Of a DNA stretch of 64,000 bases, positions 1,139 through 44,067 are shown in pieces. Under the pieces are notes generated by a model that worked only from the letters and a program-made list of their open reading frames with translations, was not told the origin of the DNA and made no database searches. The first letter of the stretch is position 1. Each line of letters starts with the position of its first letter. Made by a program: the position numbers and the translations under genes. Source of the stretch: a virus; IMG/VR virus record IMGVR_UViG_3300044911_002208, positions 1-64,000 of that record. The stretch is one strand, 5' to 3'.

Positions 1139-1351
1139 TTAAATCTTTCTTACATCAAAGATAAACTGGAACTGAATATGGAACTCTCGTTTGAAGAGAG
1201 AAACCATTTTACCAAACATTATCTCAAATGTTTTTGGCGTTAATGAATTTTCCCTCCTATTATTCTGTCTTAACATTAACTCAAATCCCCGATTAATATC
1301 GGGCTCTTGATTATTTAGTTTGCTTTTTTCTTCTTCCTGGTCTCCTATCAT
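1139..1351 (-). CDS. Small conserved protein
   Basis: 70 residues from the ATG at 1351, chosen because GGAGA lies 7 bases upstream; the ATG at 1369 has no ribosome site. The C-terminal half (LTPKTFEIMFGKMVSLFKR and the aromatic HIQFQFIF run) looks like a compact folded domain. The first 14 codons overlap the end of the upstream gene in another frame. Function unknown. Confidence 0.55.
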   Translation of the reverse strand: MIGDQEEEKSKLNNQEPDINRGFELMLRQNNRRENSLTPKTFEIMFGKMVSLFKREFHIQFQFIFDVRKI

Positions 1352-1679
1352 TACTATATCTCCAAGCATCTTCTAAAATGCCGTAAAGGTAATTTCTAAT
1401 CTTTCTTGCTTGTGGTTTGGGTATATGCCCATATGCTTCACGTAGTTGCTTATGCACATCGTCTTGTCCACCTTCAAGATAATCATCCAAATCTAAAATA
1501 ATACTATTGATATTAGTAGCAGTATTACTTTCAATAAAAGACTCAACTTGACATCTTTTTGCACTATTAATTTTTAAATAATCATAAAATTTTAAAACAA
1601 ATTTTCCATCAAAAGCAAGATCAATAGCCTTTTCAACATCATGATAAACATCGAAAAGATTGGTGGTCATTAAGTTCAT
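1311..1679 (-). CDS. Conserved phage protein, basic C-terminus
   Basis: 122 residues with GGGAG three bases before the ATG. The protein is largely helical, with LDLDDYLEGGQDDVHKQLRE and then KPQARKIRNYLYGILEDAW, and ends in a very basic RRPGRRKK tail that could contact nucleic acid. It is the first gene of the small-protein group reading left. Family not recognised. Confidence 0.6.
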   Translation of the reverse strand: MNLMTTNLFDVYHDVEKAIDLAFDGKFVLKFYDYLKINSAKRCQVESFIESNTATNINSIILDLDDYLEGGQDDVHKQLREAYGHIPKPQARKIRNYLYGILEDAWRYSNDRRPGRRKKQTK

Positions 1680-42471: not shown

Positions 42472-42669
42472 ATGCCAAGAGAGTGGAACACTCCAAAAAG
42501 AGAGTGTTGGAATGCTCCTATCCACCAAATACTAAAGGCCATTGATAATCACACCCGTCTCTGGTTAGAGACGGGTGATTTTTGGCATGAAGAACAGGCA
42601 AATACATTAAGAAAATATGTCGGAGATTTGAAGACATGGATCCACAACCAAGAAAAATCTCACCACTGA
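42472..42669 (+). CDS. Small conserved cyanophage protein
   Basis: 65 residues with WNAPIHQILKAIDNHTRLWLE and ANTLRKYVGDLKTWIHNQ: helical, Trp- and His-rich. It starts 3 bases after the preceding gene and overlaps the next by 34 bases. Unknown function. Confidence 0.65.
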   Translation: MPREWNTPKRECWNAPIHQILKAIDNHTRLWLETGDFWHEEQANTLRKYVGDLKTWIHNQEKSHH

Positions 42670-42893
42670 CAGTACTCATATACTCAACATTTGTTGTGTT
42701 GTTTGGGTATATTGGTTTTAGTATTGCCAGTTGCAATCTGATGATTCCTGGCACAATGCATTATGCTAACGTAAAAGGAGAATTAAAAAATCCCCCACCC
42801 ATAGATTGTAATAAATCACAGGATGAGGGTATTAAACAATTGTTAGTTGCTATTGGATTGTTAATTGCTTATAAAGCAAAGTCAGACGATTAA
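42636..42893 (+). CDS. Small membrane protein
   Basis: 85 residues with two hydrophobic segments: about 10-33 (LTVLIYSTFVVLFGYIGFSI) and about 68-80 (LLVAIGLLIAYKA), separated by a Cys-containing loop. The size and topology would fit a holin-like protein, and it is convergent with the lysozyme frame (end 42890), but there is no direct evidence of holin function. Confidence 0.6.
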   Translation: MDPQPRKISPLTVLIYSTFVVLFGYIGFSIASCNLMIPGTMHYANVKGELKNPPPIDCNKSQDEGIKQLLVAIGLLIAYKAKSDD

Positions 42894-43372
42894 GATATCC
42901 ATAGTTTTCCTTCAGCAGTACGTCTTCTCAATAATCCCGATTCTACATTACTTCCAGGATTACGATACATCTTTAATGTCTCTGGGATTGCTGACCAATT
43001 CTTCTCACGAAGGTTGCGAGAGATAGTATTAAATCCGCTTCCACCGTAAAAACCAGCACCGAGATTATAAGCAAAGCTGAAAAGTGCTCCATGTTGATTA
43101 TCAGTCATTTCACTCCAATAAGGAATCTTTTGTAAAGAAGGAAGAAATCTTTGTTCAAGATCAAATAAAAGTAATTTATCAGCATAATCTTGAGTGACTT
43201 TTTTTCCAAGTTTAAATGGTTGCCCATTAAAATCTCTAGTACTTCCCCATCCAATAGTTATTGGTAGACCTCCAGTTAATGGGTCGGGATAAGCATTTAA
43301 ATGGCATCCCTCAAATTCTTTAATTAAATCAACACCACATTGGGGGATTTTTTGTTGTGGTGTTGACTCTAC
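42890..43372 (-). CDS. GH24 lysozyme domain reached by predicted -1 frameshift
   Basis: 160 residues in a frame that has no start codon after its upstream TGA (43382-43384). It contains the GH24 triad: IKEFEGCHLNAYPDPLTGG gives Glu and, nine residues on, Asp; ITIGWG gives Thr. HGALFSFAYNLGAGFYGG and LLRRRTAEGKLW complete the fold. Read from the 43369-44067 gene through A AAA AAG at 43372-43378 it extends that protein to about 392 residues. It cuts peptidoglycan glycan strands. A sequencing indel is the main alternative. Confidence 0.8.
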   Translation of the reverse strand, partial: VESTPQQKIPQCGVDLIKEFEGCHLNAYPDPLTGGLPITIGWGSTRDFNGQPFKLGKKVTQDYADKLLLFDLEQRFLPSLQKIPYWSEMTDNQHGALFSFAYNLGAGFYGGSGFNTISRNLREKNWSAIPETLKMYRNPGSNVESGLLRRRTAEGKLWIS

Positions 43373-43378
43373 TTTTTT
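43330..43378 (-). promoter_or_regulatory. Programmed -1 frameshift signal
   Basis: Slippery heptamer A AAA AAG (43372-43378) ends right before the TAG stop; a 6-base spacer follows, then a perfect 10-bp stem CAACACCACA/TGTGGTGTTG (43356-43365 with 43330-43339) and a 16-base loop. This is the architecture of dnaX-type frameshift sites. Confidence 0.75.
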
Positions 43379-44067
43379 ACATCAAAAATTCTACCCCACC
43401 CATCATTTCCTGCTGGACACCATCTACGTGTTAATTCACTACGTTTATAAACAGCACCTTTACCATTTTGTACTGCCTCAGTATATCCATCATTCAATGA
43501 ACCATAAGGATCATTAACTACATAATCTCCAGCAGGAGTTTTGCCAATCACAACTACCATGTGTCCTCCTGTGGGATTAGATAGAGTCCCACGATGAAGA
43601 ATGCCAATAACAACAGGTCTACCAGCGGCAAGCTCTCTATCAAGATCAGCAAAAGAAAGACTGTAGGAAAAACTGGATTTAATGCCGTATGACGCAAGAA
43701 CTTTGGTTTGAACCAAGTGATCAGTTGTGTCACCGATTGAAAAAACTTTTTGTACATAGGCGTCATCGCCCTTAGATCCTTTTAATGTGCCTGGTTTAAA
43801 ATATTCGAGACACATTGCACAAGCAGAAGAGTTACAAGTTCTATCTGCATCTCTATAATTATCTGTTTGTGGATAAAATGGAACTGGTAAAATATCTGCT
43901 TGAGGTTTGTTTTCTTTTGTTCTAAAAATTCTCACCCAATTTGCTTCATCTTGCATTAGTTCTTGTGCCTTCAAAAGCAAATCCTTTTCAAATTGCTCTA
44001 CTGCAGCAACATGCTTTGGATTATTTTCATCAAAGAATTTAAAGAAGTTATGAAGATCTATAAGCAT
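43369..44067 (-). CDS. C39-like cysteine peptidase (N-terminal part of peptidase-lysozyme)
   Basis: 232 residues from the ATG at 44067; longer starts would run through the terminator at 44099-44122. Catalytic Cys lies in RTCNSSACAMCLEYF, His in GGHMVVVIG, Asp in YVVNDPYG, the C39_2 arrangement. The 0-frame ends IFDVKK-stop exactly at the slippery site, so most product would be the peptidase alone and a fraction the fusion with GH24 lysozyme. Likely cuts peptide cross-links or processes phage proteins. Confidence 0.75.
   Translation of the reverse strand: MLIDLHNFFKFFDENNPKHVAAVEQFEKDLLLKAQELMQDEANWVRIFRTKENKPQADILPVPFYPQTDNYRDADRTCNSSACAMCLEYFKPGTLKGSKGDDAYVQKVFSIGDTTDHLVQTKVLASYGIKSSFSYSLSFADLDRELAAGRPVVIGILHRGTLSNPTGGHMVVVIGKTPAGDYVVNDPYGSLNDGYTEAVQNGKGAVYKRSELTRRWCPAGNDGWGRIFDVKK

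Follow-up and report, generated by a model that had tools for sequence, protein, structure and literature searches.

We find that a cyanophage peptidase gene very probably uses programmed −1 ribosomal frameshifting to make two proteins, a C39-like peptidase and the same peptidase fused to a GH24 lysozyme. We give this reading a probability of about 0.9; the slippage itself and its rate we infer from sequence. What was observed is the basis for it: a sequence signal that is conserved and covaries, both domains under selection, and a host with a single tRNA-Lys. The gene lies in the 64,000-nt stretch of DNA analysed here (the window), itself taken from a virus record of 148,843 bases. By inspection and PHROGs searches, this record carries psbA, psbD, hli, ferredoxin, and nine tRNA genes, and thus we assign the virus to the T4-like cyanophages. 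The features of the junction are listed in Table 1.

Table 1. Features of the peptidase/lysozyme junction, in window coordinates. Start-less relatives have no start codon for the lysozyme at the peptidase stop.
Feature	Position	Strand	Basis
0-frame gene of 232 aa: N-terminal domain and C39-like/papain-fold cysteine peptidase; stop TAG 43371-43369	43369..44067	-	Pfam PF13529, E 3e-13
TGA opening the -1 frame, 3 nt 5′ of the heptamer	43382..43384	-	read from sequence
Slippery heptamer AAAAAAG, phase A_AAA_AAG; A AAA AAG in the 0 frame, AAA AAA after a -1 slip	43372..43378	-	heptamer in 76/76 start-less distinct relatives
0-frame stop TAG adjoining the heptamer	43369..43371	-	heptamer-adjoining stop in 68/76 relatives
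Spacer TAGAGT, 6 nt, heptamer to core stem	43366..43371	-	read from sequence
5′ stem arm CAACACCACA	43356..43365	-	compensatory changes among relatives
3′ stem arm TGTGGTGTTG, also coding CGVD of the lysozyme	43330..43339	-	compensatory changes among relatives
-1-frame extension from GTA (V-E-S-T...) to TAA 42892-42890, 160 aa, complete GH24 lysozyme	42890..43372	-	Pfam PF00959, E 2e-22

The peptidase gene carries an N-terminal stretch (about residues 1-55) ahead of the C39-like domain. Residues Cys78, His169, and Asp186 are invariant (alignments A1/A4), and the C..H..D motif is present in 76/76 start-less relatives. Because a PDB sequence search with the peptidase profile gave no relative, we performed a fold search with an AlphaFold model (mean pLDDT 78). 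Papain-like peptidases and peptidases of the C39-like kind matched this model, one of them a bacterial C39-like enzyme and another the pseudomurein endoisopeptidase PeiR; the best match in the viral library was the lysozyme entry of ACG-2014f, a fused relative. Motif and model together predict a C39-like cysteine peptidase of papain-like fold with a Cys-His-Asp set.

The lysozyme domain is encoded in the −1 frame. Between the TGA that opens this frame and the domain there is no ATG, GTG, or TTG, and the first ATG lies deep inside the domain at 43108. The catalytic E, D, and T are invariant (alignment A2), and the PDB relatives are lysozymes and endolysins. The E..D..T set recurs in 76/76 start-less relatives if the residue before D is left free, six loci having Y-x-D instead of YPD. 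These matches predict a GH24 phage lysozyme with its catalytic E, D, and T, as the first-pass annotation had proposed when it described a −1 lysozyme frame with an intact catalytic set and no start after its own stop. Measured against the window allele, dN/dS had a median of 0.17 in the lysozyme and of 0.13 in the peptidase, and the lysozyme is thus under purifying selection. The predicted fusion has 232 + 160 = 392 residues, and both product lengths given earlier hold.

Several PHROG families of this enzyme, including phrog_10051, are named ‘endolysin’. Going by its domains and these names, the enzyme is most likely a phage peptidoglycan hydrolase (endolysin) acting in lysis; a role at entry instead is possible. 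Searching PHROGs, we found no holin or other lysis gene among the six nearby genes. A convergent 85-aa ORF with hydrophobic segments (window 42636..42893, + strand) overlaps the 3′ end of the lysozyme by 4 nt and has no PHROG match. It possibly encodes a membrane protein, for which a holin identity is only a candidate.

The 0-frame gene ends with GAT GTA AAA AAG TAG, so that, as noted at first pass, the heptamer and then the stop codon close the peptidase. An X_XXY_YYZ heptamer in the 0 frame and inside the ORF overlap is found in the window and in 76/76 start-less relatives, followed by an open, conserved −1 frame without a start. In the long ORFs of the window, which total 18,501 codons, an in-frame A_AAA_AAG is found eight times and adjoins a stop only once; a much stronger argument than this count comes from the 76/76 start-less relatives that keep a heptamer. 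We also considered a second heptamer, three codons before the end of the window gene at 1311..1679 (-), and rejected it, since the downstream ORF has its own ATG and there is no sign of recoding.

Downstream of the heptamer, the window has the 6-base spacer, the perfect 10-bp core stem, and the 16-nt loop reported in the first-pass annotation, and the helix grows to 14 bp when G·U pairs are counted. Folded alone, the stem region gave −20.2 kcal/mol in comparison with −10.3 for shuffled sequences (z −3.8). A stem of at least seven contiguous base pairs follows the heptamer in 75/76 start-less loci. The longest contiguous helix in these loci had a median of 10.5 bp (5.3 bp when shuffled), whereas in 24 loci with a lysozyme start codon the median was 5 bp (4.7 bp when shuffled). 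Since no comparable stem exists where a start codon is present, the stem is tied to frameshifting and not to the protein sequence.

To assess pairing, we performed an arm-swap test, in which the 5′ window was fixed by the heptamer and the 3′ window by the lysozyme codons, with pairing disregarded. Native pairs had a mean of −17.1 kcal/mol, while arms joined from unlike phages gave −7.2 (permutation z = −14.8). Among 19 representatives with unlike arms, the native mean was −16.4 against −9.7, and the best of 5000 permutations reached −13.8 kcal/mol. In the stem family of the window (21 distinct sequences), 98.6% of cells were paired and four base pairs showed two-sided changes, with 0 in every slid control. 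The letters of the stem vary greatly among relatives, yet evolution has kept their complementarity. The comparison of relatives proposed at first pass thus finds heptamer, spacer, and stem maintained with massive compensatory change, the stem-loop lying 5-9 nt downstream of the heptamer.

We then surveyed the gene pair in metagenomes. Six IMG/VR scans with peptidase and lysozyme queries yielded loci L011-L384; forward frames were searched with profiles and duplicates were removed. A pair was counted when the lysozyme began no more than 70 nt from the stop of the peptidase, which gave 100 distinct pairs. The lysozyme was in the −1 frame in 100/100 and in the +1 frame in none. No start codon overlapped the stop in 76 of these pairs, and every one of the 76 had a heptamer (73 A_AAA_AAG and 3 T_TTT_TTT). 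The other 24 had an NTGA stop-start overlap; the heptamer was kept in 19 of them and absent in 5. All five heptamer-less pairs have a start codon at the stop, so that pairs with neither number zero, a result with a Fisher probability of about 6e-4 that serves as a guide only, since the loci are related. The distance from heptamer to lysozyme ranged over 35-80 nt and varied only by multiples of three, which argues for translation of the linker in the −1 frame. In two further loci (L235, L252), C_CCA_AAG stands directly before the stop, followed by an 11-12-bp stem.

Fusion does not appear to be required in all lineages, since about a fifth of the overlapping pairs use a start codon and many phages have a peptidase without a nearby lysozyme. 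In L001 (2185-2210) and about 15 other loci of the S-SRM01 type, AAAAAAG is kept and the lysozyme has a start of its own in an overlapping ATGA/GTGA. Hairpins of 7-8 bp are also present in L083 and L061, of the start-codon type, where frameshifting and re-initiation might act side by side. Single-frame lysozyme-peptidase fusions in the reverse order were seen in L004 (1489-2670) and 36 other loci; in many of them, recognition of the N-domain/peptidase profile was limited to its peptidase part. One locus, L403 (NYUL01000008.1), is titled as the Gammaproteobacteria MAG CPC44 and carries a psbA 94% identical to the phage D1 protein; it is probably a mis-binned cyanophage contig.

A rival explanation would be that the A run was mis-called or misassembled and that the true gene is one in-frame fusion. 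ACG-2014f-like phages are indeed fused in frame, and L155 and L136 have A7 at this position, before GTAGAA, which joins the two domains in one frame. Relatives of this kind, with one base more, were named at first pass as the outcome that would speak against frameshifting; these two loci are the only ones found, both keep the full stem, and they stand against 76 distinct loci with the heptamer. Their A7 is either a recent mutation with loss of frameshifting or a read error, and it indicates that the site can be bypassed or mis-sequenced. The six-A run, however, recurs in 73 distinct loci from many samples, including both deposited S-PM2 genomes (AJ630128 and LN828717), and the C_CCA_AAG relatives have no long run at all. 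Errors could neither create co-varying stems nor place every pair in the −1 frame. Comparison of relatives therefore rules out sequencing error for the family as a whole, and for the window itself we regard it as extremely improbable.

Two further explanations accept the sequence as read. RNA polymerase could slip on the A run, or on the T8 of S-CAM7, and add a base to some transcripts, thereby fusing the frames; the sites are homopolymeric, and Thermus dnaX uses this route (PMC5009743). Such slippage usually takes runs of 8-9 or more, however, whereas the window has only six A, L235 and L252 have CCCAAAG and cannot slip in this way, and T8 is confined to the S-CAM7 clade. The A run moreover always ends in G at the phase fit for tandem tRNA slippage, and the conserved stem acts at the RNA level. 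We consider polymerase slippage improbable as the general mechanism, while a contribution at the T8 of the S-CAM7 clade is possible. Alternatively, ribosomes that stop at TAG could start again on a non-standard codon, giving a free lysozyme and no fusion. About 20 relatives of the S-SRM01 type have an NTGA overlap at the same junction, so coupling does work for this gene pair. ATGA-type coupling is nevertheless absent from all 76 distinct start-less loci, the window among them, and present in 24 others. Those 76 have no ATG, GTG, or TTG at the stop and always have the heptamer, and the stem covers the region where it would hinder rather than help re-initiation. Lacking a start codon, the window was ruled out for re-initiation, and we hold use of a non-standard codon to be very improbable.

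Under programmed frameshifting, ribosomes translating the peptidase gene would reach A_AAA_AAG with two tRNA-Lys(UUU) in the P and A sites. The hairpin about 5-8 nt downstream would stall them, and a fraction would re-pair on AAA_AAA one base back. Unshifted ribosomes would terminate at the adjoining TAG and release the 232-aa peptidase, while shifted ribosomes would read V-E-S-T... and make a 392-aa enzyme comprising the N-terminal domain, the peptidase, and the GH24 muramidase. This would set a ratio between a peptide-bond cutter and an enzyme cutting both peptide and glycan; that a fixed enzyme ratio would serve lysis, as proposed at first pass, is plausible.

In E. coli, A_AAA_AAG is highly slippery because the sole tRNA-Lys pairs weakly with AAG (PMC5009743). 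Checking Synechococcus WH7803, the host of S-PM2, we found 43 tRNA genes (Rfam) with one tRNA-Lys, of anticodon UUU (ARAGORN). With only this tRNA to decode AAG, the heptamer is expected to be slippery in WH7803. No tRNA-Lys is encoded in the window, and a pattern search of six cyanobacterial genomes for the tRNA-Lys anticodon loop gave one match (loop pattern only).

The first-pass annotation called the site dnaX-type. It does resemble E. coli dnaX (tau/gamma) in its A_AAA_AAG heptamer, short spacer, simple stem-loop, and host with a single tRNA-Lys(UUU). However, dnaX has a Shine-Dalgarno-like stimulator about 10 nt upstream, whereas 65 of the 76 start-less loci have no such 4-mer 4-20 nt upstream, and dnaX frameshifting truncates its product, whereas here the −1 product is 160 aa longer and gains a second catalytic domain. 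We therefore reject strict dnaX-type membership on the Shine-Dalgarno element and the outcome.

Like the lambda G/GT tail chaperone and T3/T7 gene 10 capsid −1 frameshifts, the site belongs to a dsDNA tailed phage, and its outcome is of the same kind as that of G/GT. Those systems make structural or assembly proteins, whereas the cyanophage enzyme gains a separate second enzymatic domain. The orfA/orfB transposases of IS elements similarly reach a start-less downstream frame by −1 slippage, often on A-rich heptamers with downstream structure, but they are unrelated mobile-element proteins and about half use a Shine-Dalgarno stimulator. The lactococcal phage lysin of Shearman 1994 reportedly spans two overlapping frames; compared by description only, it is alike in this and differs in host and enzyme. 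Mycobacteriophage Ms6 lysA (PMC3111421) also makes two lysin forms from one gene, although its second form is N-terminally truncated through an internal in-frame start, while the cyanophage form is C-terminally extended. PRFect (PMC10885494) lists lysins of phages among the known cases of frameshifting and cites for this a lactococcal paper from 1994. In the literature searched, which covered subscription journals only in small part, we found no earlier description of cyanophage or endolysin frameshifting. The RNA signal thus belongs to the canonical −1 type, and the novelty lies in the gene family and in how the signal is used.

Performing a distant DNA search of GenBank, we obtained 59 Synechococcus phage records and read their junctions. 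S-PM2 (AJ630128, LN828717) has GCA AAA AAG TAA with the lysozyme in the −1 frame and a different stem (AGCTCTACT/AGTAGAGCT). S-CAM7 has GTT TTT TTT CCA CAG TAG, that is, a T_TTT_TTT heptamer with a 5-nt spacer and an 8-bp stem (GTAGAACC/GGTTCTAC). In S-SRM01, AAAAAAG is followed by CAATGA, and the lysozyme has its own overlapping ATG. The deposited lysin genes of S-PM2 (gp154, L002 2457-2675) and S-CAM7 (L007 2259-2531) are fragments starting inside the lysozyme domain; these annotations are truncated because the real frame has no start. ACG-2014f carries an in-frame fusion and S-CREM1 a fusion in the opposite order; both join the same homologous two domains and, unlike the pairs predicted to use frameshifting, are always fused and give one product.

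DSL-LC02/03 have two separate genes, and their lysozyme (L005 2524-3195, L006 2267-2935) carries its own copy of the peptidase N-terminal IDLHNFFK(F/Y)YDE domain, for which we found no Pfam match. This second copy suggests that the lysozyme benefits from the N-terminal domain, which frameshifting would supply without a duplicate. In a peptidase tree of 147 distinct sequences, with 58 of 144 inner forks open, the A_AAA_AAG class is dominant and interleaved with the start-codon, stand-alone, and separate-gene classes. The T_TTT_TTT phages fall within a well supported clade whose other members are in-frame fusions, and the two C_CCA_AAG loci group with separate-gene phages. These placements imply either more than one origin of frameshifting or a replacement of heptamers. 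We regard the chances as about even that this happened repeatedly, with lineages swapping between frameshifting, in-frame fusion, ATGA coupling, and separate genes under selection for a set ratio of one- to two-activity enzyme.

Where phages are known to use frameshifting, it mostly sets the proportions of structural or assembly proteins. In this case, the ratio would be that of a one-activity to a two-activity wall-degrading enzyme, made at a widespread and overlooked recoding site in T4-like cyanophages, including long-deposited isolates such as S-PM2. The start-less lysozyme frames offer a correction for gene callers, and the −1 frameshift signals of at least 76 distinct loci form a large natural collection for cyanobacterial ribosomes. 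The stem variants, the three heptamers, and the sister lineages with fused, ATGA-coupled, or separate genes make a selected ratio testable, for which S-PM2 and Synechococcus WH7803 provide a phage and its host. If frameshifting did arise or change its heptamer several times, nature would have run, in these lineages, a replicated test of the way in which phages tune the stoichiometry of their lytic enzymes.
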